A stretch of 64,000 bases of DNA from a virus, in IMG/VR virus record IMGVR_UViG_3300010391_001464, positions 1 through 64,000 of that record, one strand, 5' to 3'. Shown here in pieces: positions 1,046-55,835 of the stretch (position 1 is its first letter; the number at the start of each line of letters is the position of its first letter). Position numbers and translations under genes: made by a program. The notes under the pieces are model-generated. The model saw only the letters and a program-made list of their open reading frames with translations, searched no databases and was not told where the DNA came from.

Positions 1046-4000
1046 ATGATTAAATTTTTAAATTTGAGAAATTACATAAGAACTCTTGATCCTGTTACTA
1101 CAACAGATTTTTTAACTAGAGAAGGTGCTTGGCATGATGAAGGTTTATTTTCTGAAAAAATATTCGGTGCAGATGGTACAATGGATAGAAAAAATAAACA
1201 ATCATATATAAATCTAAATGCTAAAGTTATACATCCATCAGCATTAAAAGTTTTACATCAACTAGACCAAAAAATTAAAAAATTTATATCAACTGAAGCA
1301 TCATTCTCATTAGATAAAAATGGAGTTTTAATTGAAGATCCAAAAGGTGTTACAGGTATTAAAGAATTTATTAAAATATTTCCTAAAATAAAATTTAGGG
1401 GAGAAACTAAAACTAGAGAAAAATATATTAAATTATTAGAAGAAGCATATGAAAATGAACTTTTATTTATTCAATATCTTCCAGTAATTCCTCCAGATTT
1501 TAGACCAGCATATCGTGATGAAAGAAATCAATTAGTTATTGATAAATTAAATGAAGTATATCTTACTGTCATAAGAAGAGCATTTCAAATGAAATCTTCT
1601 GGTTCTGGTCCATTATATGACCTTCTTAATTTTGGGCTGCAGTCAGCAGTAATAGATCATGATAATTATATAAGATTAAAGCTTCAAAAAAAACAAGGAT
1701 TGATTAGACAACAAATTTTAGGTAAAAGAATTGACTTTTCAGGAAGAGCTGTTATTACCCCAGATCCAATTTTAAAAATAAATGAGATAGGTATACCTTT
1801 CAGAATAGCAGTTGCTATTTTTGAACCATTTGTCATTTTTCAACTTTTACACTCTGGAAAAACTGACAAGGCTGAGTTACAAAAAGAAATTAAAGGTTAT
1901 ACTAACATAGATTTATCTATAGAAACTATACATAGTATATTTAAATCTATAAAACAAGGTGATAAAATTCCAGATGGTTTATATAATATTTTCTTTGAAG
2001 CAACTAAACTTGCAATGGAAGGAAGAGTAGTTTTAGCTAAAAGAGATCCGGTTCTACAGGCTGAATCATATAGAGGTTTTAATCCAATTTTAACCAAAGG
2101 TGATACTATTACAATTTGCAACTTACAAGTTGGTGGATTTAATGCTGACTTTGATGGAGATCAAATGGCAATATATCATCCACTATCAGATGAAGCTCAA
2201 GATGAAGTTAAACAAAAACTTATGAGAGTTGAAACTGGTATTTCATCAAATTCTATAAACTTTGGCTTATCTAAAGAAATGTGGGTAGGTTTATATATAC
2301 TTACAAAAAATGTGGGGATTAAAAATTCAGCTCTTGAAATTACTAATGATGATATGTCTTCTATAAAGGATCCATATATTACTGTAAAATATAGAGGAAA
2401 AATAACTACTGCAGGAAAGGCTATTTTTAATAGCTGTTTTCCCCAGGACTATCCTTTTATTTTTGATCAATCTACTAAAAAATTAATATCTAAAGAAATT
2501 TTAAATATTATAACTAAGTATAGTTCTGATGTAGCTAGAGAAGTTACATATAAATTAGAACAAGTAGCATTTAAATGGGCAACAATAATTGCTCCAAGTA
2601 TCTCAATTAAAAATTTAATTCTTCCTAAAGAAATTATGGATTTAAAAATTATTTTGAATAAATCTACAAGTATAGAAGAAGCAGATAAAATTATAGCTAG
2701 TGCTAAATCTAAAATTGAAATATTTTTAAAGGATACTGGATTTGGAGATATTGTAGAATCAGATGCTGCAAAGGGATGGGATCAACCTACTCAAATCCTA
2801 TTTGCAAAAGGTATTATTTCTGATCCTACTGGAGAAAAACTTTCAGTAATAAAAGGATCATTTTCTGACGGTCTATCAAATGTAGATTTTTTTGATGCAG
2901 CATCAGGAGCAAGAAAAGGTATTATGGACAGAGTTCTAAATACTGCTGATACCGGTTATATGTCAAGAAAACTTGCATATTTATTAAATACTGTAGAAGT
3001 TGATAGACAACTAATAAATTGTAATACTAAAAGAACATTAGATTTAAAAATGGACTCTGATTTAGCAAATAGATTAACAGGTAGATTTGTGATTAAAAAT
3101 GGTAAAACACAAGAGTTTGATAAATCTATGTATAAAGATGGAGATACAATAAGATTAAAAAGTCCAGTTTTTTGTGAAAGTCCAAAATTATGTCATACAT
3201 GTTATGGTAGATTAATTGAAAGACACAGAAGTCCATATGTTGGAATTATAGCTGCCCAGATTATAGGTGAACGTGGTACTCAGTTGATAATGAGGACATT
3301 TCATACAGGTGGAGCAGTAACAATTATTAAGAAAAATATAATTAATGATATTATTAGTAATGATCCTTTAGTTACAAAAGATATAGTTATTAAAAATTTA
3401 TCTCAAAAAGAAAATCAATTAATAGCAGAAAATGATTGTTCTTTACTTCTAGATTTAACAGATGATTATACTGAAAATGAAAACCTGATAATAGATGAAG
3501 AAAAAGGAACAATATGGGTAAAAAGTATAATCTCAAAAATTGAATTCAAGGATTCTTTTTTTAATCTAATTTTAGATTATCCTTGTGAAATTGAAATTAA
3601 AGAAATGAATAAAGTAAATAAAGAGTCTATAAGATTAAATTTTAAATCTAGAGAAATGATACTTATTGCATCATTAGAAGCCGCAGAATTAAAAGGTCAA
3701 ATATTATATGTTGAAAGATTGATAAGCGGTAGAGAATTAGTTAAAGATCCCTCACACTTATTTAGAAAACTTATGAGAGTTTATGCACCTACTAGTAGTA
3801 TAGATGCAGTTCATTTAGAGGTTTTAGTATCACAATGTCAAAGGTATAGAGAAGACCCTAGATTTCCAGCTCGACTTGGTAAAGTTTGGGATCCTATAAC
3901 TATTAATATGAAACAAGTAATATTTAATGAAGGATTTATACAAGGTTTAGCTTTTGAGAATATAAATAACGCTATAAGTCAGGGGTTAATAGGAGAGGAC

Positions 4001-4069
4001 AAACCAGAAAATTCGGTTCTAGAGAAACTACTTCTTGGTACATTAGTGACAAAGGAGAAACGAAAATAA
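1046..4069 (+). CDS. DNA-directed RNA polymerase beta'-like subunit (set 1)
   Basis: A 1007-residue homologue of bacterial beta' that carries both the N- and C-terminal parts in one chain; in phiKZ-type phages beta' is usually split in two. The catalytic Mg-binding motif NADFDGDQMA is intact at residues 366-375 (Asp 368, 370, 372). Upstream is the conserved LGKRIDFSGRAVITPDP block. The later CHTCYGRL and AAQIIGERGTQLIMRTFHTGG-type segments correspond to the beta' C-terminal Cys cluster and the trigger-loop region. The usual N-terminal Cys4 zinc finger of beta' is missing here, although set 2 keeps it. The gene is followed without a gap (ATAATGA, one-base overlap) by the beta gene. Whether this is the virion or the non-virion polymerase cannot be told from the sequence. 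Confidence 0.95.
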   Translation: MIKFLNLRNYIRTLDPVTTTDFLTREGAWHDEGLFSEKIFGADGTMDRKNKQSYINLNAKVIHPSALKVLHQLDQKIKKFISTEASFSLDKNGVLIEDPKGVTGIKEFIKIFPKIKFRGETKTREKYIKLLEEAYENELLFIQYLPVIPPDFRPAYRDERNQLVIDKLNEVYLTVIRRAFQMKSSGSGPLYDLLNFGLQSAVIDHDNYIRLKLQKKQGLIRQQILGKRIDFSGRAVITPDPILKINEIGIPFRIAVAIFEPFVIFQLLHSGKTDKAELQKEIKGYTNIDLSIETIHSIFKSIKQGDKIPDGLYNIFFEATKLAMEGRVVLAKRDPVLQAESYRGFNPILTKGDTITICNLQVGGFNADFDGDQMAIYHPLSDEAQDEVKQKLMRVETGISSNSINFGLSKEMWVGLYILTKNVGIKNSALEITNDDMSSIKDPYITVKYRGKITTAGKAIFNSCFPQDYPFIFDQSTKKLISKEILNIITKYSSDVAREVTYKLEQVAFKWATIIAPSISIKNLILPKEIMDLKIILNKSTSIEEADKIIASAKSKIEIFLKDTGFGDIVESDAAKGWDQPTQILFAKGIISDPTGEKLSVIKGSFSDGLSNVDFFDAASGARKGIMDRVLNTADTGYMSRKLAYLLNTVEVDRQLINCNTKRTLDLKMDSDLANRLTGRFVIKNGKTQEFDKSMYKDGDTIRLKSPVFCESPKLCHTCYGRLIERHRSPYVGIIAAQIIGERGTQLIMRTFHTGGAVTIIKKNIINDIISNDPLVTKDIVIKNLSQKENQLIAENDCSLLLDLTDDYTENENLIIDEEKGTIWVKSIISKIEFKDSFFNLILDYPCEIEIKEMNKVNKESIRLNFKSREMILIASLEAAELKGQILYVERLISGRELVKDPSHLFRKLMRVYAPTSSIDAVHLEVLVSQCQRYREDPRFPARLGKVWDPITINMKQVIFNEGFIQGLAFENINNAISQGLIGEDKPENSVLEKLLLGTLVTKEKRK

Positions 4070-5466
4070 TGATAGTATTTAATTTAATTAGGCAATATTC
4101 CCAAAAAGTATCTCAGATCAAATTTCCAACAGATAAAGACCACCCTTTTTTTATTTCTTATTTAAGTGAGAATTCTACATTTGTTGAAGATTTACCTAAA
4201 TTAAAATTAAGATGGATTGATTTACATGATGTATTTATACCGTATACTAAAATTCCTTTCACTAAATATAAACCACAAGAAGATAGAAAAGGTTTTAGAG
4301 ACCTAAAATGGTTTCCACATTCAACTAATGAAAAAGTTCCATCTGGGAAGAGTATAGTATTTGATTACTCAAAATTTATAAAAGAAATTGAGAAAAAATT
4401 TAATCCAAAAACTTGGAGAATGAGAGCAGGAAATCTTTTAAAAAATATGGTAGTTAAATCTTTTTCTACAGTTCCTGACAATTATAAAAAAGTTTTATTA
4501 TATTCAATTGATACTTCAAAACCTCATAGAGATTTTATGGATAGAAAAATATTTCCCATTTTACTTCAAATAAGGGACGGAATTTTACCATATGATCATT
4601 TACTTTTATGTGTTATAAATGGTAATAGTTGTTATTATAGATTGATTATTAAAGACAGACAAGTAAATATTGGAAGAGCTAGGGCTTTATTAAGAAATAT
4701 AGCATTTGAAGACTCAGATAGTGATTCAGATACTGAAGAAGTTAAACAAGTTGCTGATATTATTTCTAAAAAAGTTGAAATTCATATTAAACCAGAAAAT
4801 AAAGAAAAAGTACATTCTATAGTAAAATTATATTTATCTAGGCAGCCAGAGGAAATAGAGAAAGTATTATCTAGTGAAGATCTTTCTGATTATCAAGCAG
4901 TACAAATAACTACTTCTGCATTACTTACATCTTTGCAAGGAAGTTCAAGAAGAGCTAAAGTTATATCAAAAAATATACCAAATGAGAAGAAAGTATCTGC
5001 TTTAAAAACAATAGATAAAAATCTAATAGATGAAATTCTTAAACCACAGAAGGCAATATCTACTTCATCCGAGATAATAGTTCAAGTTATAAATCCTTCA
5101 AAAGCTGTAGACGAAAAAACTCCAACTCATATCTTTGATAAAAGACAAATAGATTTTAAAACAAATCTTAAAAAAGATGTCGAAAATATATTTAATGTTC
5201 TTAAAGTAAAAGATATGCCTTTATTTGTTGATAAAATTGAAATATTAGACAAACCGTCGAAAAGTACTGAAATTGCAAAATCAGATGAAAGTACTATTGA
5301 AGCTAATCTAAAGGACTCGGAGGGAAAGATACATAAAGTTAAAATAGATATTCCTAAAATAAATCTAGATGGTACCTTTACAGTTAATGGTAGAAAGAAA
5401 TGTTTAGTTAACCAAATTATTTTAATACCTATAACATTTCCTAAGCTATATGAAAGTAGATTTTGA
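4069..5466 (+). CDS. RNA polymerase beta-like subunit, N-terminal part (set 1)
   Basis: A 465-residue protein in the first reading frame of a split beta gene. The last third contains GKIHKVKIDIPKINLDGTF and VNGRKKCLVNQIILIPI, the phage counterpart of the beta segment GTFIINGxERVIVSQL. The middle is acidic (SDSDSDTEE near residue 220). The frame stops at TGA 5464-5466 inside the region that in set 2 is continuous (GGRKKIPQFQLFDVPVI onwards). The next frame resumes beta homology with no residues missing, so this is either a separate N-terminal subunit or the upstream half of a frameshifted gene. Confidence 0.85.
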   Translation: MIVFNLIRQYSQKVSQIKFPTDKDHPFFISYLSENSTFVEDLPKLKLRWIDLHDVFIPYTKIPFTKYKPQEDRKGFRDLKWFPHSTNEKVPSGKSIVFDYSKFIKEIEKKFNPKTWRMRAGNLLKNMVVKSFSTVPDNYKKVLLYSIDTSKPHRDFMDRKIFPILLQIRDGILPYDHLLLCVINGNSCYYRLIIKDRQVNIGRARALLRNIAFEDSDSDSDTEEVKQVADIISKKVEIHIKPENKEKVHSIVKLYLSRQPEEIEKVLSSEDLSDYQAVQITTSALLTSLQGSSRRAKVISKNIPNEKKVSALKTIDKNLIDEILKPQKAISTSSEIIVQVINPSKAVDEKTPTHIFDKRQIDFKTNLKKDVENIFNVLKVKDMPLFVDKIEILDKPSKSTEIAKSDESTIEANLKDSEGKIHKVKIDIPKINLDGTFTVNGRKKCLVNQIILIPITFPKLYESRF

Positions 5467-36254: not shown

Positions 36255-38957
36255 ATGCCCAAATTTTTAAATTTTCATGAATTTTGTAAAGAGTTGCCAG
36301 AAATAACAAGTGTAAAAATTATAGATAAAAAAAATTTCCATTCAGAAGGTTTATTTTCTGAGCAGATCTTTGGACCATTAAATAATTATACATGTCAATG
36401 TGGTATTTATTACGGCTCATCAAAGGATGGTTATTTATGTCCTGAATGTAATGTACAAGTTGTAAATAGTGATGAGAGGAGAAGAAGATTTGCAAAAATT
36501 ATACTTCCTATTCCAGTAGTAAATCCATTATTTTATGATATGTTAGTAGATATTGGAGATGGAGATTTAAAAGATATATTAGATGAAATTATGAAAAGTG
36601 ATGTTAGTATTATGTATAAAGATAAAGATGTTTATTATGTTACGGAACAAGGAAAACAACCGGAAGGAGTAGAAACCTGGGAACGACTTGATGCAATATA
36701 TGAAGTAGTAAGTAATATCTCAAATAAATTAGCTGAGAAAGGAATCGAAGAGTGGAAAATAGTTAATAAAAATTTAGATAATCTAATAATAGATCAGATT
36801 ATCGTGTTACCACCTGACTTACGGCCAGCAGCTAAGGGAATTGAGAGAAATAATCAAGTACTTGACCAAATTAATAGGTACTATGCTCAAATCCTTCATA
36901 AGAAGGAATCTATGAAGGATACAATTATTGATATTGAAAAAGATAAGAAACTATATTATAGTTATTATAGGCAAATTCAAAAAGATGTGTCAGAACTATA
37001 TAAACATATACTTGAAAAACTTTCTAAAAAAGAAGGACTAATTAGAGGAAATATTTTAGGGAAAAGAATTGATTTTTCAGGAAGAGCAGTTATTGTTCCT
37101 GACCCAACTCTTGACTTAGATTCATGTGTATTACCTTATCTTATGTTTTTAGAATTATTTAAACTTCAAGTATCTAAACGATTAATATATAAAGGAAAGT
37201 TTAAACTTCTCAATAACGCAATTGATTTTGTTGATAAATGTATTGAATTAAAAACTACATCATTATTTAGAATATGTGAAGAAATTGCAAAAGATGAAGT
37301 ATGTATTTTAAATAGACAACCATCTTTACATCGTTTAAGCATGATAGGTTTTAATATAAAAATATCATTAGATGAAGTAATTAAAATTCATCCATTGGTA
37401 TGTCCTGGATTTAATGCTGACTTTGACGGGGATCAAATGGCAGTATATGTTCCTATTACTGAAGTCACTAAACAAGAAGTTAAAGATAAGCTTCTAATGT
37501 CAAAGAATTTAAATAATCCATCTGACAATAGTTTGAGTACTACTCCTAGCCAAGATATTATTTTAGGTCTTTATTCTTTATCTGCAAATTTATTTCCAGA
37601 TTTACTGGAAATAGTTGAATTTAAAGGAAGAAAGATTACAGAAAGTAGAAAAATTGTAAATGAATGTTTTCCAGATGATTATCCAATAGTAGATGAAGAG
37701 TTAAAAAAATTAAATATTATAAAAATTTTGAATGATATTAAAGACAGATATCCTGAATCAGTTATAAAGGAAGTATTAGATAAAACTAAATTAGTAGGTT
37801 TTAAATATTCTACATTGTTTGGTTCAACAATGGCATTAAATGAATGTTACCTTAAAGATGCTGACAAATATAAACAAATTATTTATTCTGAACAAGCAAT
37901 ATCACAACAGTTGAATAGAGTTTCTTCTAATGAAACCAAAGACTTAATGAAAAAGAACTTTAATTATGCATATACAGTTGAATCTGGAGCTAGAGGAAGT
38001 TGGGATCAAGTTAGACAAATCATTTTAACTAGAGGATTTATATCTAACTTTAAAGGACAGATACTTCCAGTTCCAATTAAACATAGTTTAATAGATGGAT
38101 TAAATCAAGAAGAATTTTTTCTATCAACATATGGTTGTAGAAAAGGACTTCTTGATGTAGCTTTAAATACTGGAATCTCAGGTTATTTATCTAGAAAATT
38201 AATATTTACTTGTTCAAATCTTCAGTTAGATGAAAACTTAAAAGATTGTGGAACTACCGATACATTAAGTATTTTTGTAAAAGATGAAAAGAAAGCAAAA
38301 ATGTTAATCGGTAGATGGTTTGTAATTAATAATAATTTAATTTTGATTACAAAGGCTAATTACGAATCTTTTGTAGGTCAAACTTTAAATTTAAGAAGTC
38401 CAATATTATGTAAAAGCCCAAAAGTATGTACTACTTGCTATGGAGATTTATATAAATCTTTACATAGTAAATTTGTAGGAGTTATATCAGCTCAGTCTTT
38501 AGGTGAATGTAATACTCAACTCGTTCTCCGCACGTTTCACACGAGTGGAGTTGCATCTGTAAAAGATAAGATAAATAATAAAGATATGATCCAACAAGAT
38601 ATTATTGGAGATTTATCTTCAGTGTCTAAAATGCTTCATAATTTTCAAGGAAAAAATTATACAGATTTAGTTAGTAAGCTTTTTGAGGTATATAATAATA
38701 GTAGAAAAATTCATCATGTTCATTTTGAAGTATTGGTTGCACAATTGATGTGGAATAATCTCCATAAGTGGAGATTATTAGAAGATAGAGATAAAAAAGA
38801 AATACAATTTTACTCAGTTCAAACTGTGCCAGCAAAAGAAAGTTGGTTGTTAGGTTTAGCATTTAGCAACCCAAAGAAAAATATCCTTAGTGGTATTCTT
38901 TATCCTGGAAACTATACTGGAGTAATGGATAAAATTCTATGTGGAGAAAAGATATAG
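36255..38957 (+). CDS. DNA-directed RNA polymerase beta'-like subunit (set 2)
   Basis: 900 residues, one chain covering both halves of beta'. An N-terminal zinc finger is present (CQCG ... CPEC, residues about 48-73), followed by ILGKRIDFSGRAVIVPDP and NRQPSLHRLSM. The catalytic NADFDGDQMAVY is at 387-398 (Asp 389, 391, 393). CKSPKVCTTCYGDL and ECNTQLVLRTFHTSG are the C-terminal Cys cluster and trigger-loop block. It is clearly distinct from the set 1 protein, which lacks the N-terminal finger. An endonuclease gene follows, then the beta gene. Confidence 0.95.
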   Translation: MPKFLNFHEFCKELPEITSVKIIDKKNFHSEGLFSEQIFGPLNNYTCQCGIYYGSSKDGYLCPECNVQVVNSDERRRRFAKIILPIPVVNPLFYDMLVDIGDGDLKDILDEIMKSDVSIMYKDKDVYYVTEQGKQPEGVETWERLDAIYEVVSNISNKLAEKGIEEWKIVNKNLDNLIIDQIIVLPPDLRPAAKGIERNNQVLDQINRYYAQILHKKESMKDTIIDIEKDKKLYYSYYRQIQKDVSELYKHILEKLSKKEGLIRGNILGKRIDFSGRAVIVPDPTLDLDSCVLPYLMFLELFKLQVSKRLIYKGKFKLLNNAIDFVDKCIELKTTSLFRICEEIAKDEVCILNRQPSLHRLSMIGFNIKISLDEVIKIHPLVCPGFNADFDGDQMAVYVPITEVTKQEVKDKLLMSKNLNNPSDNSLSTTPSQDIILGLYSLSANLFPDLLEIVEFKGRKITESRKIVNECFPDDYPIVDEELKKLNIIKILNDIKDRYPESVIKEVLDKTKLVGFKYSTLFGSTMALNECYLKDADKYKQIIYSEQAISQQLNRVSSNETKDLMKKNFNYAYTVESGARGSWDQVRQIILTRGFISNFKGQILPVPIKHSLIDGLNQEEFFLSTYGCRKGLLDVALNTGISGYLSRKLIFTCSNLQLDENLKDCGTTDTLSIFVKDEKKAKMLIGRWFVINNNLILITKANYESFVGQTLNLRSPILCKSPKVCTTCYGDLYKSLHSKFVGVISAQSLGECNTQLVLRTFHTSGVASVKDKINNKDMIQQDIIGDLSSVSKMLHNFQGKNYTDLVSKLFEVYNNSRKIHHVHFEVLVAQLMWNNLHKWRLLEDRDKKEIQFYSVQTVPAKESWLLGLAFSNPKKNILSGILYPGNYTGVMDKILCGEKI

Positions 38958-43704: not shown

Positions 43705-44118
43705 ATGAATACGATTCAAAACACACCAAAAGAACTATTCAAATCAAAAGAACAATATCTACAGTTCATTCAAGCATGGAAAAAAGCATATAAAGAAAAT
43801 AAACAATCTTTAACTTTAAAGCAACATATGTTGTACGCAATGTTCAGAAATAAAGATTGGAGAAAATGTTGTACTCCATGTACTAATAAAAATAAAATTA
43901 ATAATGGTCAAAAACCAAATCAAACCACATTTACTGCATTTTTTGAATTAAGAAGAAATTATAGAAGTTTATGTGTTTTTGGTGAAAATGTTACGAATGA
44001 AATGTACGATAATTTAATTTCAAAATATCTTCCTGACCCAAAAGAGTTTAATTTAGGCGATTCAATTCCAAATTCCCCATATAAGGTTATAAATGAAACT
44101 GTTTGTTCTGGTTCGTAA
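43705..44118 (+). CDS. Unknown 137-aa protein under leader control
   Basis: MNTIQNTPKELFKSKEQYLQFIQ..., a basic helical N terminus, then KDWRKCCTPCTNKNKI (three Cys in CC-x2-C) and an aromatic/basic middle. No family recognised. Its ribosome binding site is buried in a hairpin behind an amber-containing leader peptide, so its expression is probably conditional. The peptidyl-tRNA-hydrolase-like gene overlaps its 3' end by 26 bases. Confidence 0.7.
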   Translation: MNTIQNTPKELFKSKEQYLQFIQAWKKAYKENKQSLTLKQHMLYAMFRNKDWRKCCTPCTNKNKINNGQKPNQTTFTAFFELRRNYRSLCVFGENVTNEMYDNLISKYLPDPKEFNLGDSIPNSPYKVINETVCSGS

Positions 44119-44389
44119 GGACCTTAGTAAAAATCAACAAGCAGTTCAAGCTGGACATGTAGTAGCTCAATATCTATTACATGTCCAGAATCATTCATGG
44201 ACTAACGGAACATTAATCTATCTCGGAGTTGATAATAAAGAAGAGCTAGAGATATGGGGAGATAAATTAGACATGCAAGGATTAAACTGGGTTGGATTTA
44301 AAGAACCTGATTTGAATAATGAAATGACTGCATTAAGTATTGCTTCAGATGAAAATCCTTTCAAAAGATTAAAACTAATGGAATTATAA
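44093..44389 (+). CDS. Peptidyl-tRNA hydrolase 2 (PTH2)-like protein
   Basis: 98 residues. KLFVLVRKDLSKNQQAVQAGHVVAQYLL matches the N-terminal block of PTH2 (V-x-R-x-DL...K...AAQ-x-GHA), and GLNWVGFKEPDLNNEMTALSI the later strand pair (F-x-DP-x2-TA). PTH2 enzymes release peptides from tRNAs after drop-off. This fits a locus with a minigene-like leader and an unusual tRNA. It lacks an obvious ribosome binding site and is probably translated by coupling to the 43705 gene. Confidence 0.65.
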   Translation: MKLFVLVRKDLSKNQQAVQAGHVVAQYLLHVQNHSWTNGTLIYLGVDNKEELEIWGDKLDMQGLNWVGFKEPDLNNEMTALSIASDENPFKRLKLMEL

Positions 44390-44487
44390 ACATGGGATTG
44401 ATGTAATAACCAAGACAGTACGAAGAGGATAGACATATAACACACCATCATTCTCTTAACGACAATCGGGTAAATCAGTCCCATGTT
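44389..44487 (+). ncRNA. Candidate structured RNA A (14-bp closing stem)
   Basis: AACATGGGATTGAT (44389-44402) pairs with ATCAGTCCCATGTT (44474-44487) in a 14-bp stem with one wobble, enclosing about 70 bases that include an AAGAG / CTCTT helix. It lies between the PTH2-like gene, whose TAA it touches, and the amber-anticodon tRNA. The size and layout resemble the elements at 48994 and 51535. Confidence 0.5.
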
Positions 44488-44502
44488 ATTAAAAAAGTAA
44501 AC

Positions 44503-44574
44503 ACCTCATTAGCTCAGCGGTAGAGCGATGGTCCCTAAAACCAAATGTCACGGGTTCAAATCCTGTATGAGGTA
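44503..44574 (+). tRNA. Putative suppressor tRNA, anticodon CUA (amber)
   Basis: Cloverleaf by eye: acceptor ACCTCAT / ATGAGGT (7 bp), D stem GCTC / GAGC, anticodon stem TGGT / ACCA (fifth pair A-A mismatched), 7-base loop CCCTAAA with CTA at positions 34-36, 5-base variable loop, T stem ACGGG / CCTGT with TTCAAAT loop. A37 and A38 follow the anticodon as expected for a UNN-reading tRNA. Oddities: C instead of the near-universal U at position 33, and no encoded CCA end, unlike the other three tRNAs here. A CCA-adding enzyme is encoded at 54510. Confidence 0.7.
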
Positions 44575-46396: not shown

Positions 46397-47416
46397 ATGG
46401 ATATAGGTGATAAATCAAAATCATTTTGGGAACGTCCGGAGGGAACAACTGGAATGATAACATTAGCACTTCTAGGAATAGGCGGTGCTATTCTGTTAAG
46501 TACTGTTCTTCCCTTCATCATATCTCTTTTACAGAATACTATATATGCAGCTTTCCTTTTTACGATCCTTGCAGCTATTGTATTTCTGGTAACAAATAAG
46601 AAGATAAGAACTATAGTATCTTATATGTTCAAATCAATCATGAGGTCAATGACAAATGTTTTTATTACAATTGACCCTATCGGAATATTAAAGAATTATA
46701 TTTCCGATCTTGAAAGTAGTCTTGTAGACATGGATGAACAGAATGCAATAGTGAAAGGACAAATAAGAGCTCTAGACATAGAAATAAATAATAATGAGTC
46801 TAAGAGACAAAAGTCCCTAAATATCGCAAAGGTTGCAAATGAACAGGGACAAAAACTTGCTGTTACTCTTGAAGGAAGAAAGGCCGGAAGACTTAAAGAA
46901 ACAAATTTAACATATCAAGGGCTCAGAACCAAGTTTGAGCTCTTATATCGTACATTAATAAAAATGTACGAAAGATCTGACTTTCTTCTACAAGATATGA
47001 AGTCAGAAGTAGAAGTAAAAGAAAAAGAATATAATATAGTTAAAGCATCCTATTCTGCCTATAGGTCGGCAGTAAAGATAGTCAATGGTGATAAGGATGC
47101 AAGAGAACTTTTCGAACAGACCATGGAATATTTGGCTGAAGACTATGGAAAGAAGCTCGGAGAAATTGAACACTTTATGGAAACCAGTCAAAAATTTGTA
47201 GCTTCAGTTGATATTCAAAATGGAATATATGAAGCAGATGCTCTGAAGAATCTGGAAACATGGGAAAAAGACATGGATAATATTCTTCTTCCGGGCCCAG
47301 AAAAAAGAGAACTGATCGAAATGTCAAACGATATCAGTCATCCCCTTGTTTTTGAAAAAGAAAAAGTACCAGTTGCTGCAAGAAAGAAATCTGGAAATAA
47401 ATATCTGGATGTTTAA
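46397..47416 (+). CDS. Membrane protein with PspA-like coiled coil
   Basis: 339 residues. Two adjacent transmembrane helices (about residues 17-40 and 46-66), then an amphipathic segment and long PspA/IM30-like helices (ESSLVDMDEQNAIVKGQIRALD...). The C terminus is basic. It could scaffold or stabilise the inner membrane around the ABC transporter encoded next. Confidence 0.65.
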   Translation: MDIGDKSKSFWERPEGTTGMITLALLGIGGAILLSTVLPFIISLLQNTIYAAFLFTILAAIVFLVTNKKIRTIVSYMFKSIMRSMTNVFITIDPIGILKNYISDLESSLVDMDEQNAIVKGQIRALDIEINNNESKRQKSLNIAKVANEQGQKLAVTLEGRKAGRLKETNLTYQGLRTKFELLYRTLIKMYERSDFLLQDMKSEVEVKEKEYNIVKASYSAYRSAVKIVNGDKDARELFEQTMEYLAEDYGKKLGEIEHFMETSQKFVASVDIQNGIYEADALKNLETWEKDMDNILLPGPEKRELIEMSNDISHPLVFEKEKVPVAARKKSGNKYLDV

Positions 47417-47444
47417 AAATCAATCGGAAAAGGAGAACATCTAC

Positions 47445-48986
47445 ATGCAAGGAAGACGTATGGGTCCAGCACTAAAAGGAATAATTATTTTCGCAGTTGC
47501 AGCAGCACTTTTCTTCGGATTCGTAAAGTACAAACATATGATCATACCCGAAGGAAGACAAACAAAATCAATTCTTTCTGATGACACCAAAAAGGCGGTC
47601 AAGGACGGGACCAAGGTTTACAGTATATGTGTTGTTACTTGGCCCGGATATGCAGGAGCCCAGTTATTTAACAATGGATTCTCTGCAAACAAGGATTCTG
47701 AGTATTACAAAAAGTATGGGATCATGGTTGATTTCAAGATTATAGATGACCTTAAACCCAGTCGGGATGCTTTCATTGATGGTAAATGTGATCTTCTATG
47801 GATGACATTTGACTCAATGTCCCCAGAAGCAGATTCCTTAGCTAAAGTTGGGGCAGAAGCTGTATGGGGGGCTGATAAGAGCAGAGGTGGAGATGTTGTT
47901 GTTGTTACACATGACATCAAAACTATAAATGATCTGGCCGGTCAGCCAGTAGCTTTTGCCCAAGCATCACCATCAAACTCATATCTTTTGATTCTTTTGA
48001 AAGCGGCTGGAAAGGAATGGAGTTTTATAAAACCAGTTGCTGTCGACTCGGCTATCACTGCAGCAAAATATTTCCAAGATGGGAAAGTAAAGGCTGCAAT
48101 CGTATGGTCTCCAGACGATGAAACATGTGTAAGTAAGGTTCCGGGTGCAAGAAAATTTGCATCTACAAAGACCCATACAGATGTGATAAGCGATGGATTT
48201 TGGGCCAAGAAGGAAAATGTTGAAGCCAACTTCAATGACTTCGTCAATATCTATCGTGGATGGATGATTGGAAATGCTAGAATAAATTCTTCTTCTGAGC
48301 AAAAGATTAAAGCTGCTAAGATTTTATCTTCTGGATTAAATATATCAGAAGGAGATGCAATGAATGCCTTGGATAAGGTGAGGCTTCTAACTCATGGTGA
48401 TAATATAAATCTATTTGGAATGAATTCCTCGTTTACAGGTATAACTGCAGACGACCTTTATTCCAATACTGCAAGGATTTATGAAGCCATTGGTTATGCC
48501 TCAAATTCTCCTTCATGGCGAACTGTAAGTACTAATAAGATCATTGCGGCTGCTAGTGACCTTACGTCAGAACCAGGTCAGAATGCAGAAGGTCAAATGA
48601 AATTTACCGCTGCATCTCCAAGTCTCCTAAATGAACCGGTTATCGCAAGTCAAGCTGTAAGTATTACCTTCAACACAGGTTCATCTGAAATTGATGACAA
48701 TGGAAAAGTTATCCTTCAGATAGCAGTTGGTGAAACTCTCCGGAAACTATCTTGATCAAGGGTAAAAATTGAAGGACATACTGATAACATCGGAGATCCA
48801 GCAAGCAACAGACGTCTATCAAAAAGAAGGGCAGAGTCCGTTGTTGGATATCTCGTATCTAAATATAACTTCGATCGAAACAGATTTATTGTTGATGGGA
48901 AGGGACAAGAACATCCCATTATGACAAATGAAACAGAAGAAGGTCGAAGAACAAACAGAAGAACTGAAATTGCAATTTTGAATTAA
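47445..48986 (+). CDS. ABC-transporter substrate-binding protein fused to OmpA domain, with in-frame TGA
   Basis: ATG 47445 (GGAG nine bases upstream) is preferred to earlier in-frame codons inside the previous gene. An N-terminal membrane anchor (residues about 11-26) is followed by an NMT1/SsuA-like periplasmic binding domain (TKVYSICVVTWPGYAGAQLF ... FAQASPSNSYLLILLKAAG). The C-terminal OmpA peptidoglycan-binding domain begins SITFNTGSSEIDDNGKVIL. TGA at 48753-48755 interrupts it, and the same frame resumes RVKIEGHTDNIGDPASNRRL and ends GRRTNRRTEIAILN at 48986. Intact length about 513 residues. A nonsense mutation, read-through or sequence error. Confidence 0.8.
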
Positions 48987-48993
48987 ACTTCAA

Positions 48994-49090
48994 GTGGAGA
49001 TGTATTATTAAATAATATTTGTTCGATAGTGTAAATCCTAGATTGCTTGTTGCAATAGGTATATCGATAAATCTGATAATACATCTCCAC
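48994..49090 (+). ncRNA. Candidate structured RNA B (17-bp closing stem)
   Basis: GTGGAGATGTATTATTA (48994-49010) pairs with TGATAATACATCTCCAC (49074-49090), one wobble pair. Nested inside are TCGAT / ATCGA and then CCTAGATTGC / GCAATAGG hairpins. This three-tier rod fills the gap between the binding-protein and permease genes. It could be a processing or attenuation element or a stand-alone small RNA. Confidence 0.6.
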
Positions 49091-49110
49091 AATTTCTTTA
49101 AAGGAGAACT

Positions 49111-49914
49111 ATGAATTATTCTTCTCTGTTTGAATTGAGAGGATTTGTACAAGAACGAGATAAAAAAATTTTAAGCATTATTGGAACGATGGGTGTTATA
49201 TTTATATGGCAATTAATTGTAACAATATTTAATATAAATGAGGCAACATTACCTTCACCGATTAAAGTAATGTACTCATTTAAGGAGTTGCATTTTGAAG
49301 ATGCATTGATAAGAAATGCATTATATTCATTAAAATTGAACCTTCTTGGTATGACATATGCAGTTTTATTTGCATTACCCTTAGGGTTTTTAATTGGACT
49401 ATTTCCAATATTTAAACATCTTACTGAAAAACAAATAGCAGTGTTTAGATATTTACCATTGACATTACTTATAGGTGTTTTTATACATGCTTTTGGATTT
49501 TATGATATGATGAAGATGAGTTTTTTAGCAGTTGGTATTTTCGTTTATCTTCTACCTACTGTTGTACTTCGAGTAAGTGAAGTAGATGAAGTATATGTAC
49601 AAACTGTTAAAACTCTAGGTGCGTCAAAATGGCAAACGATAAAGACTATTTTTGTCCCAGGAGTCTTATCAAAAACCTTTGATGACATAATAGTCTTAGC
49701 ACCAATATCCTGGACATATATTATCATTGCTGAAATGATGAATAATACAGGTGGTTTAGGAGCTCTAGCATATCTTGCTGGACGACAATCAAGGGCAGAT
49801 AAAGCATTTGCAATCCTTGTAACTGTCTTTATAATAGGAATGATTCTAGATAAAGGATTTTCCTATCTAGATAAAATTTTCTTTAAATTCAAATATGTAA
49901 AGAAGGGGGATTGA
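49111..49914 (+). CDS. ABC transporter permease (SsuC/TauC/NrtB type)
   Basis: 267 residues, ATG behind AAAGGAG. About six transmembrane segments. The cytoplasmic EAA-type loop VQTVKTLGASKWQTIKTIFVPG docks the ATPase. The family imports nitrate, sulfonate, taurine or bicarbonate; the substrate here is unknown. The ATPase gene starts four bases after its stop. Confidence 0.88.
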   Translation: MNYSSLFELRGFVQERDKKILSIIGTMGVIFIWQLIVTIFNINEATLPSPIKVMYSFKELHFEDALIRNALYSLKLNLLGMTYAVLFALPLGFLIGLFPIFKHLTEKQIAVFRYLPLTLLIGVFIHAFGFYDMMKMSFLAVGIFVYLLPTVVLRVSEVDEVYVQTVKTLGASKWQTIKTIFVPGVLSKTFDDIIVLAPISWTYIIIAEMMNNTGGLGALAYLAGRQSRADKAFAILVTVFIIGMILDKGFSYLDKIFFKFKYVKKGD

Positions 49915-49918
49915 TAAA

Positions 49919-50719
49919 ATGAGTGTAGAATTTAAAAATACATCCCTTCCAGATATTATTGAGTTGAGAAATATAAATCAGTCATATGGTGACAAAGTAA
50001 TTATAAAAGATTTTAATTTATTAGTTGAAGATAAACCAAATATGGGGCAATTTGAAGTAATTCTAGGCGAATCTGGATGTGGAAAGTCTACTATTTTAAG
50101 ATATATCGCAGGACTACAAAAACCTACTTCAGGTGAAGTTTTTATTCATGCAAAACCAAGAACTAATGAACCGATAAGTATGGTATTCCAAAGATACTCT
50201 TCAATTCCGTGGTTATCAGTCCTTCAAAATGTAATACTTCCCTTAGATATTAGAAATGAGGGAGATAAAAAGGAAAGAGAACAAAAAGCAAGAGAAATGA
50301 TAAAAACGGTTGATCTAGAAGGGCATGAAGATAAATATGCAGTTTATCCTCTCCTTTCTGGTGGACAACTTCAGAGAGTAGCTATTGCTAGAAGTTTGAT
50401 TTCCAATCCTGAAATTTTATTAATGGATGAGCCTTTTGGGGCTCTTGATAATAATACAAGAAATAAGATGCAGGTAATGTTAGCAAAATTATGGGAGAAG
50501 TACCAATCAACTATAATCTTTGTTACCCATGATATACGCGAAGCAGTATTTTTGGCAGATAATATCTACATAATGAAGTCAAATCCCGCATATATTGAAA
50601 AACTAATTCATATTGATTTACCTTTAGTAAGAGATAGATATACTAAGAATGAAAAGAAGTTCTTAGATCTCGTAGATTATGTTGAGAATGCTCTACTAAA
50701 TATCAATGTGAAAAAATAA
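49919..50719 (+). CDS. ABC transporter ATP-binding protein (SsuB/TauB/NrtD type)
   Basis: 266 residues with Walker A GESGCGKST, Q-loop VFQRYSSIPWLSVLQNV, signature LSGGQLQRVAIARSL, Walker B ILLMDEPFGALD and H-loop FVTHDIREA. All catalytic residues are intact. It completes a putative importer with the 47445 binding protein and the 49111 permease, which is unusual for a phage. Confidence 0.93.
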   Translation: MSVEFKNTSLPDIIELRNINQSYGDKVIIKDFNLLVEDKPNMGQFEVILGESGCGKSTILRYIAGLQKPTSGEVFIHAKPRTNEPISMVFQRYSSIPWLSVLQNVILPLDIRNEGDKKEREQKAREMIKTVDLEGHEDKYAVYPLLSGGQLQRVAIARSLISNPEILLMDEPFGALDNNTRNKMQVMLAKLWEKYQSTIIFVTHDIREAVFLADNIYIMKSNPAYIEKLIHIDLPLVRDRYTKNEKKFLDLVDYVENALLNINVKK

Positions 50720-51628: not shown

Positions 51629-51677
51629 TTCTTTACTAAACTTTTGAGTATTGTTTTAATAGTAATCATTAATATAA

Positions 51678-51712
51678 GCCCTTATAATTCAACTGGTAGA
51701 ATAGCTGATCTC
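51678..51712 (+). tRNA. 5' fragment of a disrupted tRNA
   Basis: GCCCTTATAATTC... reads as a tRNA acceptor arm and a complete D arm (ATTC / GAAT around AACTGGTA), then the start of an anticodon stem GCTGA. The 3' half is missing. An endonuclease gene begins directly afterwards, so the tRNA was probably destroyed by its insertion. Confidence 0.5.
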
Positions 51713-51745
51713 TTTCTATATAGAACATATATAGAAAGAGGTTAG
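51705..51745 (+). promoter_or_regulatory. 18-bp hairpin in front of endonuclease gene
   Basis: CTGATCTCTTTCTATATA pairs over its full length (two wobbles) with TATATAGAAAGAGGTTAG around a GAACA loop. The right arm contains the AAGAGG ribosome binding site of the gene at 51748. Hairpins that hide the ribosome binding site of homing endonucleases in some transcripts are known in T4. Confidence 0.65.
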
Positions 51746-51747
51746 TA

Positions 51748-52421
51748 ATGTTTTGTAAATTTTGCAATAAAGAATGTAAAAACAATAATTCGATTATAAA
51801 TCATGAAAGATTATGCAAATTAAATTCTAATAGACATATAAGTTCATTTATAGAATATAATAAAAAAGTAAAGAATTTAGAAGTAATAAAATTAAATACT
51901 AATGGTGCTACAAAAGCAAAAAATTTAGGAAAAGTATTTATAATATCTAATAAAACTAGAGAAAAAATTAGAATTAAAAGTTTAGGAAGAAAACATTCAG
52001 AAAAGTTTAAGACTAACCAAAGATTTAATGCTTTTAAAAATAAATTAGGTGGGCACACTTCTAAAAAAGTCTTTATTATAAAAAAGAACATGGAGATATA
52101 GTATATTTACATTCAAGTTATGAATTAATAGTCGCTAAAGAACTTGATTATTATCATATAGAATGGACTAGACCTGATCCTTTAATTTGGACAGATAATG
52201 TAAAACATAGATATTATCCAGATTTTTATTTACCTGAATTTAATATATATTTAGATACAAAGAATGATTACTTGATAGAAAAAGATAAATATAAAATAGA
52301 TAAAGTTATAAAAGAGAATAATATCAAATTATTTATAATAGATAAAAATAATCTATCATGGCTTAAAATAAAAAATATAATTTGCCCGCTAAGCATTAAT
52401 GGTGATGCAGAGGTTTTGTAA
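51748..52421 (+). CDS. Homing-endonuclease-like gene in tRNA cluster, with -1 frameshift
   Basis: The first frame (51748-52101) starts with a zinc-finger-like MFCKFCNKECKNN...INHERLC and a NUMOD-like SLGRKHSEKF segment, then stops. A -1 shift at ATA AAA AAG (A-AAA-AAG slippery heptamer, about 52080) continues KEHGDIVYLHSSYELIVAK, YYPDFYLPEFNIYLDTKN, a PD-(D/E)XK-type nuclease core (Asp, Asp and Lys in PDFYLPEFNIYLDTK). The frame runs into the tRNA-Thr gene and stops at 52421. About 224 residues in all. Confidence 0.6.
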
Positions 52422-54360: not shown

Positions 54361-54509
54361 GGTTAAAATAAAATGTTTAGAAAATATGAAAAACATTTAG
54401 AATTATTGTTCCAAGTATAGATATTAAAGGAAAATTATTTTTATCAAAGGAAGAAGATAATAATTGGACATATAAAAAATTAATAAAAATAAGTTACTTG
54501 GAGAATAAC

Positions 54510-55835
54510 GTGGAAAAAGTAATACAAATAGCTAAAGAAATAAAAAAGAATAATGGTTATTGTTATATAAATGGAGGATATGTAAGAGATAAAGTTTTAG
54601 GATATCCTTCTAAAGATATTGACGTTGAAGTTTATAAGTTAAATCCACAGATTCTTTTCAATATTCTTTCTAAATTTGGAACACCAAAATTAGGAGGTAA
54701 AAGTTTTGGAGTATTCAAATTAGATGAATATGATTTTAGTCTTCCAAGAAGAGAGAAAAAGATAGGGTCCAAACATACGGATTTTGATGTAGAATGTGAT
54801 AAAAATATGACTCCAGAAGAAGCATGTATAAGAAGAGATCTAACAATAAATGCGTTATTAATGGATCCCTTTACAAATTCTATTTACGATTATTATGGTG
54901 GTCTTGACGATATAAAAAATAAAATTATTAGACATGTGTCTAATAAATTTTCTGAAGATCCTTTAAGAGTAATAAGAGTTGCAAGATTCAGTTCAAGATT
55001 TGAATTTGAAATTTATAAAGAAACTAAACTATTATGTGAGTCTCTATTATGTGAATTAAAATATTTACCAAAAGAAAGATTTTTTACTGAGTTTGAAAGT
55101 ATTTTATTAAAGAGCAAAAATCCTTCTATTGCATTTAATTTCTTATCTTCAATTGGTATAATAGAATCTTATTATCCTGAATTAGATGTATTAAAATATA
55201 TTGAGCAGGGAGAAAAATATCATCCTGAAGGATCTGTATGGAACCATGTTTTAATGGCATTAGACCAAATACCTTTAGAGGAAAGAACATTAACAACAAT
55301 GTTAGCAATTCTATGTCATGATATGGGAAAAGCAATAGTGAAGCAAGAAGATAAAGGTGATGGTCATATCTCATTTAAATATCATGCAGATGATGGTGTT
55401 TATCCAGCTGAAAAGTTTTTAAAAAGTATAACTAATGAAACTCAGTTAATAAATAATGTTTTAAATTTAGTAAAACATCATATGAGGCCATATGATTTAA
55501 AGAAACAAATTAATAAAAATAACATAAGAAGACTTGCATTAACTGTTGATATTCCTTCATTAATGATAGTACATAAAGCAGATAAATTAAGAAGAGGTTA
55601 TCAAGAATTAGATTTAGACTATATTCAGAAGATGATAAAAGTATATAATGAAATAAAAGATGAAGTTAAACCTTTAATTCAAGGAAGACATTTAATTGAA
55701 TTAGGTTTAGAACCAGGAAACTATTTTGGCCCGATCTTAAAACAAATATTTGAGTTACAAATAAATGGTGAATTCTCAAATATTGAAGATCGAATTAAAT
55801 TAGCGAAAGAGAGAAATATAATATGTCTAAAATGA
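54510..55835 (+). CDS. CCA-adding enzyme / poly(A) polymerase family with HD domain
   Basis: 441 residues from GTG 54510 (GGAG six bases upstream; TTG 54498 would overlap that site). NGGYVRDKVLG and KDIDVEVYKL (catalytic Asp pair) define the nucleotidyltransferase head. RRDLTINALLMD and GGLDDIKNKIIRHV follow, then DPLRVIRVARF. A C-terminal HD domain has LCHDMGKA and VKHHMRPYDL. Such enzymes add CCA to tRNA 3' ends. The amber-anticodon tRNA at 44503 lacks an encoded CCA and would need this activity. Confidence 0.88.
   Translation: MEKVIQIAKEIKKNNGYCYINGGYVRDKVLGYPSKDIDVEVYKLNPQILFNILSKFGTPKLGGKSFGVFKLDEYDFSLPRREKKIGSKHTDFDVECDKNMTPEEACIRRDLTINALLMDPFTNSIYDYYGGLDDIKNKIIRHVSNKFSEDPLRVIRVARFSSRFEFEIYKETKLLCESLLCELKYLPKERFFTEFESILLKSKNPSIAFNFLSSIGIIESYYPELDVLKYIEQGEKYHPEGSVWNHVLMALDQIPLEERTLTTMLAILCHDMGKAIVKQEDKGDGHISFKYHADDGVYPAEKFLKSITNETQLINNVLNLVKHHMRPYDLKKQINKNNIRRLALTVDIPSLMIVHKADKLRRGYQELDLDYIQKMIKVYNEIKDEVKPLIQGRHLIELGLEPGNYFGPILKQIFELQINGEFSNIEDRIKLAKERNIICLK

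Follow-up and report, generated by a model that had tools for sequence, protein, structure and literature searches.

The UAG-decoding tRNA found in the window (the whole stretch of viral DNA analyzed here, 64,000 nucleotides in length) lies directly downstream of, and on the same strand as, a gene for a divergent peptidyl-tRNA hydrolase 2, hereafter called PTH2-like, and the same pairing recurs in distant large phages that mostly use the standard genetic code. We consider it fairly probable that the tRNA and the PTH2-like gene constitute one module across these phages, when the explanation is taken whole and includes the recycling of tRNAs; the functional coupling of the two, by itself, is nearly certain. 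In part of the related lineages the frame of the hydrolase is interrupted by an in-frame UAG just after its start, hereafter the UAG gate, and this codon is very probably read through. The chances that the hydrolase serves in recycling or feedback appear evenly balanced.

The CUA tRNA and Its Surroundings

The features of the window considered in this study are the following:

43705..44118, + strand: ORF of 137 aa that overlaps the 5' end of the PTH2-like gene (ORF list)
44093..44389, + strand: PTH2-like (divergent peptidyl-tRNA hydrolase 2) gene, 98 aa, with a clean ATG, no UAG gate and a TAA stop
44388..44486, + strand: strongly folding spacer with a 14-bp basal stem, located between the PTH2-like stop codon and the tRNA (fold)
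44503..44574, + strand: tRNA with CUA anticodon, C33, A27-A43 and A73, CCA not encoded (ARAGORN, Rfam RF00005, fold)
54498/54510..55835, + strand: tRNA nucleotidyltransferase/poly(A) polymerase-type protein with HD domain (Pfam)

The window contains four tRNAs according to ARAGORN, namely CTA (44503-44574, + strand), Gln(TTG), Thr(TGT) and Ala(TGC), the first being labeled tRNA-Pyl because of its CTA anticodon. Against the Rfam model RF00005 the CUA tRNA scores 63 bits (E 2.6e-11), at the top of the three window tRNAs above the cut-off (Ala 62.3, Thr 45.9), the Gln tRNA falling below the gathering score; an Rfam search of the whole virus record of 90,144 bases returned no tRNA beyond those of the window. 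The molecule folds as a clean cloverleaf in which the cmscan alignment places a single non-standard pair, A-A at position 27-43 of the anticodon stem. Its acceptor stem pairs perfectly (ACCTCAT/ATGAGGT), its anticodon loop reads CCCTAAA (C32 C33 C34 T35 A36 A37 A38) and A73 precedes TTT, which leaves the tRNA without an encoded CCA; at the 3' end of each of the other tRNAs CCA is present. An earlier note on this DNA had described a suppressor-type tRNA with a CUA anticodon, C33, an A27-A43 mismatch and, alone among the four, no encoded CCA, all of which agrees with our results; ARAGORN, named there as a check, calls CTA, and the covariance model accepts the tRNA at 63 bits. The assignment of 44503-44574 as a UAG-decoding tRNA of the suppressor type is thus well supported at the level of sequence.

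The gap of 114 nt between the PTH2-like gene and the CUA tRNA contains a 98-nt folding insert, the corresponding gap in relatives being 1-45 nt; the window pair belongs to the lineage having the tRNA directly behind the hydrolase gene, with the insert added. Folding of the spacer (44388-44492) is strong (z -5.38, with 0/200 shuffles equally stable), and its hairpin corresponds to no Rfam family and has no close match among the related loci compared. A search of the + strand in the interval separating the two revealed neither a promoter-like nor a terminator-like site. The ORF at 43705..44118, a possible third member of the operon, lacks Pfam matches, reaches phrog_22448 only at E 0.0061 and is not recognized by the HMM built for the small proteins encoded upstream in 17 related loci (see below).

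The protein encoded at 54498..55835 has the Pfam domains PolyA_pol (E 2e-18), HD and PolyA_pol_RNAbd, and the CCA-adding-type enzyme formerly reported at 54510 is confirmed to this extent, namely as a nucleotidyltransferase-type protein. This product could add CCA to the CUA tRNA. The tie that had been drawn between the CCA-less tRNA and this enzyme, 10 kb away, is unspecific, because a missing encoded CCA is common among the tRNAs of related phages (CCA in 14/43 suppressor vs. 93/313 other tRNAs, p 0.72). A scan for relatives of the enzyme, run as a control, found none.

Elsewhere in the window, PHROGs identify subunits of a multi-subunit RNA polymerase (RNAP), as in jumbo phages, at 1046-5466 and 36255-38957, the 90-kb record probably representing part of a larger genome. 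In 12 loci related by the RNAP gene ARAGORN detects no tRNA, and these therefore provide no orthologous locus for comparison. A phage-borne ABC import system occupies 47346-50719 (permease E 1.1e-12, ATPase E 1.3e-27), its phosphonate/NMT1-like binding protein remaining slightly under the cut-offs. Inspection by eye of 51660-52380 shows a stretch resembling the 5' half of a tRNA, a long hairpin and then an endonuclease-like ORF that extends to the Thr tRNA and seems frameshifted near 52100; a homing element may have disrupted a tRNA here.

The PTH2-Like Protein

Any effect of the tRNA had previously been proposed to be local or late; "local" provides the best fit, but the PTH2-like gene directly upstream had been overlooked. 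The protein encoded at 44093-44389 matches phrog_1866 and phrog_3668 ("hydrolase"), and its score against Pfam PTH2 (PF01981) is below the cut-off (17.5 bits vs. 23, E 0.0048). Relatives above this cut-off are found in loci L018 (23.2), L021 (32.9), L023 (32), L024 (28) and L092 (31.3), and a profile built from nine relatives matches solved archaeal PTH2 chains in a PDB profile search. The AlphaFold model of the window protein has a pLDDT of 94.8 and Foldseek ranks 1-13 in the PDB (E 7.9e-7 to 1.7e-4) are all occupied by known PTH2 structures; the predicted fold of the window product is that of PTH2.

The catalytic residues of PTH2 are the Lys of the GK motif and the Asp of DAGxT. In the subfamily linked to suppressor tRNAs, the profile alignment places Q or another residue at the position of the GK lysine and Glu opposite the conserved Asp, which is why we use the name PTH2-like and not that of proven PTH2. 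The linked subfamily has its own invariant motif, EPD..N..T, and Q19, H22, F69, E71, P72, D73, N76 and T79 do not vary over 42 sequences. (These represent 42 of the 49 cluster representatives defined below; L023, L033, L035, L039, L041, L045 and L094 were omitted for in-frame stops or as partial or long rows.) Given the changes of the GK lysine and of the Asp, hydrolase activity may have been lost or altered in the linked proteins, and the GK motif coexists with the UAG gate only in L163.

Gene callers overlook or shorten the gated form of the gene. Serratia phage BF has no annotated CDS across the PTH2-like domain, the annotated CDS of CBB and GAP32 begins 25 codons within it and PHROG 34073 is a truncated form, matching only residues 26-102 of the BF domain.

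Linkage of Stop-Decoding tRNAs and PTH2-Like Genes

Relatives were collected by an alignment search of viral contigs, of which the best 80 of 135 loci were kept; these 80, together with the window and loci L022-L025, form 49 clusters at 70% identity. In an early case, L018, the CUA tRNA begins within ten bases after the stop of the PTH2-like gene. Among the best 80 of 135 loci, ARAGORN detects a CTA, TTA or TCA tRNA in the fetched flank of 70, at a distance of at most 50 nt in 20, 200 nt in 36, 1 kb in 62 and 1.5 kb in 66 (the counts from 50 nt to 1.5 kb use the default match ends for most loci, the nearest-tRNA test below the listed ends). By cluster, again for the best 80 of 135 loci, 43 of 49 have a stop-decoding tRNA at no more than 10 kb from the gene and 38 at no more than 1.5 kb, and gene and tRNA are co-stranded in 43/43. 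We define the module as a stop-decoding tRNA co-stranded with, and no more than 1.5 kb from, a PTH2-like gene of the EPD type, and this is what the window contains. The remaining 6/49 clusters from the best 80 of 135 loci have no suppressor tRNA by ARAGORN, one of the six, L086, possessing a CUA tRNA poor in D arm. Other tRNAs occur as well in 29 loci (best 80 of 135), and in 27 of these the suppressor is the tRNA nearest to the gene, the expected number being 4.9 (P=1.4e-22).

The suppressor tRNAs of the 43 clusters have a median mutual identity of 0.53, same-anticodon pairs of other tRNAs having 0.54, and the ordinary tRNAs nearest to them belong to 14 different isotypes; different tRNAs have thus been recruited to one place. 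Linked tRNAs other than the UAG-reading ones are found as UCA in L038 and L040 and as UUA in the Lak phages and L091, all with ungated genes. In Lak-A1 the UUA tRNA adjoins the gene, a CUA tRNA lies ~64 kb away and the main tRNA arrays are distant. Because UAA- and UGA-reading tRNAs are linked without a gate, the partnership appears to involve stop-reading tRNAs as such, the gate being an added layer. A scan of the genome contigs of 84,980 species yielded two loci, each with a CUA tRNA downstream, which are probably phage contigs.

The gene for a small protein with the motif R-H-x-H-I-A-x-x-x-x-R-G immediately precedes the PTH2-like gene in 17/49 representatives from the best 80 of 135 loci (15 by script, to which we add L031 and L035, where frame and domain share 85 bases). 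Pfam does not recognize these proteins and their PHROG matches are weak at best; a member in Stenotrophomonas phage DLP5 (gp070, L281:1874-2263) lies 8 nt ahead of the Sup-CTA tRNA, and the family is a possible third partner of the module. Phage tmRNA genes are also present 1-5 kb from the gene and its suppressor in L278:5155-5527, L279:6579-6937, L042, L046, L048 and L095, which would fit a theme of ribosome rescue.

The linkage was also examined in reverse with a DNA pattern for CUA-type tRNAs that is blind to PTH2, taking 80 loci among the matches listed. According to ARAGORN, 45 of these do hold a suppressor tRNA, and 15 of the 45 have a PTH2-like gene, within 2 kb in 13 cases and co-stranded in all 13; the other 30/45 show no PTH2-like gene in the stretch examined. 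Four of the 35 loci without an ARAGORN suppressor hold a PTH2-like gene, and in two of them, L110 and L148, a CUA tRNA overlooked by ARAGORN lies right upstream. The PTH2-like genes of the reverse set are TAG-gated in 9/19 cases, clean in 9 and without gate assignment in one; the gate states of L176 and L180 are unreliable, since the alignment of L176 starts only at profile position 48 and L180 lacks a usable domain start. Forward and reverse sets overlap, L118 and L029 being parts of one contig.

Canonical PTH2 genes of phages Atu_ph07, Munch, phiM12, phiCbK and Baka, used as controls, have no tRNA of any kind within 2.5 kb (0/5) and ordinary starts without gate (0/5). Against the linkage, the out-of-sample check of phage DLP5 revealed a suppressor tRNA and no PTH2-like gene; RaK2, RAS14 and Hallingskeid possess an ungated PTH2-like gene with no suppressor tRNA within 3 kb.

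The UAG Gate

Between the PTH2-like domain and the nearest upstream in-frame stop, no usable start (counting ATG, GTG and TTG only) is present in 41/86 sequences and 18/49 clusters from the best 80 of 135 loci. The stop in question is TAG in 41/41, with an in-frame ATG 2-8 codons ahead of it in 39 (best 80 of 135 loci). A second TAG is present in L097 and L099, and internal TAGs occur in the PTH2-like genes of L023, L033, L035 and L039. The gene in L041:10001-10276 has an in-frame TGA at a Trp position, its linked tRNA being CUA with C33. The gate, absent from the window gene, is present in 9 of the 14 phage records that we inspected (12 isolates and two metagenome genomes), namely Serratia BF, CBB, GAP32, ME3, Arash, pT24, XbC2, LR756500 and LR756511.

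A CUA tRNA accompanies the gate in 18/18 gated clusters from the best 80 of 135 loci (17 by ARAGORN, L086 by cmscan and reading) and in 9/9 gated phage records. It is mostly close to the gene, with distances of 3.3 to 8.2 kb in BF, CBB, XbC2 and LR756511. The tRNA of L086 (9890-9955), nearly devoid of D arm and scoring 23.7 bits with cmscan, lies directly upstream of the gated gene and is overlooked by ARAGORN even on the whole contig.

In the 25 cases compared, the base 3' of the gate is always a purine, A 19 times and G 6 times (p about 2e-6), an excess in keeping with good contexts for amber suppression. Frames composed of an ATG, a short run of codons, a stop and then an open frame have TAG, TAA and TGA in proportions of 13/1/1 at the PTH2-like gene vs. 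13/28/36 elsewhere in the same loci, where no excess of TAG and hence no sign of other UAG-gated genes is apparent. One of the 13 TAG cases elsewhere, L073:4195-4938, has the gated PTH2-like N-terminus repeated just before the full gene, the extra copy being fused to a homing-endonuclease-like protein (phrog_655, E 3.7e-42); a gated gene also ends prematurely in L110 near 720-933. Homing elements seem to invade the PTH2-like gene. The gate changes state at least eight times on a tree of 60 rows (the 49 representatives and 11 of the 14 phage records, leaving out CBB, XbC2 and LR756500), and the tree gives no signal of correlation between gate and tRNA adjacency, the independent pairs being too few.

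Proposed Mechanism and Alternatives

In the mechanism that we propose, the CUA tRNA would be charged by a host synthetase and would read UAG in competition with RF1, and the hydrolase would cleave the peptidyl-tRNAs that drop from ribosomes when a tRNA reads a stop, the suppressor and other tRNAs being thereby recycled. Drop-off is frequent in early elongation and Pth recycles its products in E. coli, according to PMC10192219. In gated lineages, the in-frame UAG lying 2-8 codons past the AUG would tie full-length hydrolase to a suppressor that is present and charged, so that the gate would act as a feed-forward or feedback loop; placed this early, it would leave only a short peptide if unsuppressed, providing a tight off-state. 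In the lineage of the window the coupling would instead operate through position, with hydrolase and then tRNA on one strand and no gate. If this is true, unrelated tRNAs would have been used repeatedly to rebuild the switch, operon order would take the place of the gate in lineages like that of the window, and many of the target-less suppressor tRNAs of non-recoding phages would be explained. A conserved partner and a visible UAG target make the purpose of these tRNAs testable in the cultured phages GAP32, CBB, BF, ME3, Arash and pT24.

The pair could alternatively serve in counter-defence, rescuing ribosomes and tRNAs after the action of host anticodon nucleases or RelE-like cleavage at stop codons. 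The idea of Iyer et al. (2021; PMC7824862) that jumbo-phage PTH2 hydrolyzes peptidyl-tRNA upon cleavage of tRNAs at the ribosome points in this direction, as do the tmRNA genes near the module in a few loci; counter-defence alone, however, leaves the choice of stop-decoding tRNAs and the UAG gate unexplained, and we regard it as unlikely.

That the gate is not read through is a distinctly unlikely possibility, in which ATG-xx-TAG would be a leader mini-ORF (an attenuator or a drop-off minigene) and the hydrolase would be made from a non-AUG start. The 2-8 codons fall in the range of frequent peptidyl-tRNA drop-off (PMC10192219), ATT, ATC or ATA follows the TAG in 12/25 cases and, in Myrna and Astraea, the start codon is directly followed by TAG and then by GTG as the next potential start. 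However, ATG, GTG and TTG are absent between stop and domain in all 41 sequences and a leader could use any stop, yet TAG is the one found throughout. Moreover, GAP32, CBB, XbC2, BF and Arash read on with AAT or AAC, four of them keeping N-[ED]-K-T-W-I directly past the TAG, and a CUA tRNA is present in all the gated genomes that were checked.

The tRNA of the window could alternatively be decaying or non-decoding, for U33 is nearly universal in tRNAs and A27-A43 weakens the anticodon arm. We consider this decidedly improbable: the molecule is the best tRNA of the window, and C33 recurs in 9/43 linked suppressors vs. 16/313 other tRNAs of related phages (p 0.0011), which points to a tolerated or selected weak suppressor in which C33 may tune suppression down. 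The oddities listed in the earlier note are present as described, but two of them weigh less than it implied, the missing CCA being ordinary (cf. above) and C33 recurrent.

A global or late recoding of TAG, as in code 15, by which the tRNA would insert an amino acid in many genes, is very improbable. TAG-recoded Lak phages do have a relative of the PTH2-like gene, and late genes timed by suppressors were reportedly proposed by Borges and colleagues in 2022. Against it, treating TAG as sense does not lengthen the ORFs of the window (mean of 217 aa with TAG as stop vs. 209 aa with TAG as sense, positions 30001-60000) and shifts mean ORF length by only -8 to +6% in 16/18 gated clusters from the best 80 of 135 loci, the exceptions L081 and L090 being G+C-rich loci in which ORFs lengthen more with TGA. 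Nineteen ORFs of the 90-kb record end in TAG, and 18 of these run no more than 10 codons further, in line with the previous statement that most genes end cleanly without general recoding; the absence of TAG stops among minus-strand ORFs of the record (0/19) is uninformative because these ORFs are few. The search for in-frame TAG elsewhere in the genome, which had been named as a check, leads to no UAG-gated target in the 90-kb record, no gated or read-through gene being found in the scan of the 64-kb window or among the TAG ends of the record. Code-15 status of the window phage is thus not supported by its sequence. Back-up stops after TAG ends were considered as a sign of suppression, being more frequent in the record (18/19 vs. 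65/96 other ends, p 0.022), and were rejected since the pooled related loci show the opposite (52/105 vs. 409/683, p 0.055).

Mere hitch-hiking of gene and suppressor tRNA in a shared mobile, tRNA-rich region, to which the abundance of tRNAs at many PTH2-like loci and the presence of homing endonucleases might point, is extremely improbable in view of the nearest-tRNA test (27/29, P 1.4e-22), the several lineages of linked tRNAs, the Lak-A1 UUA tRNA lying far from the main arrays and the unlinked canonical phage PTH2.

Comparison with Known Systems

We found no prior report of the linkage or of the UAG gate in the open-access literature. The PTH2 of jumbo phages is known and, according to the proposal of Iyer et al. 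(2021, PMC7824862), would hydrolyze peptidyl-tRNA after tRNA cleavage at the ribosome; it resembles the present proteins in its fold, its phage origin and the idea of ribosome rescue, whereas the word "suppressor" appears 0 times in the main text of the article. The linked subfamily differs by the lack of the GK lysine and the invariant EPD..N..T motif, and the canonical genes are unlinked and ungated (5/5).

Orphan stop-decoding tRNAs in phages of standard code, comparable with those studied here, are described for XacN1 (PMC5852040), Atu_ph07 (PMC6102473) and Summit (PMC9022506). Those of XacN1 and Summit are presented without target, the latter with the words "the purpose ... remains unknown", so that such single-phage papers left these tRNAs without explanation. 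XacN1 and Atu_ph07 are also reported to encode Pth (PMC5852040, PMC6102473). The PTH2-like gene of the linked type in XacN1 is ORF364, annotated as hypothetical, and DLP5, close kin of Summit, has no PTH2-like gene. Theta ribozymes likewise form a conserved element beside phage suppressor tRNAs, with a role in tRNA 3'-end processing ("hydrolase" occurs 0 times in the text consulted of PMC10879173); the hairpin of the window, in contrast, lies upstream of the tRNA and belongs to no Rfam family.

Suppressor tRNAs are also known from recoded phages (PMC13037316). The code-15 phages (Lak, crAss-like) share with the present ones a phage CUA tRNA on a host of standard code, but here the code of the phage is standard too and the target, in those phages that show one, is a single gene, PTH2-like and gated at its start. 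Pyrrolysine and selenocysteine decoding also combine a dedicated stop-reading tRNA with genes having an in-frame stop, whereas no dedicated synthetase or special amino acid is seen here and the phage tRNAs are of many unrelated types. A comparable design is the engineered feed-forward loop of PMC7969014, in which a dedicated suppressor tRNA switches on an amber-blocked gene; that circuit is synthetic, whereas the phage module is natural and recurrent. It could, with about equal chances for and against, be a self-contained switch in which a dedicated suppressor and a single UAG-gated PTH2-like gene, clearing the peptidyl-tRNAs that arise from suppression, form a natural circuit.
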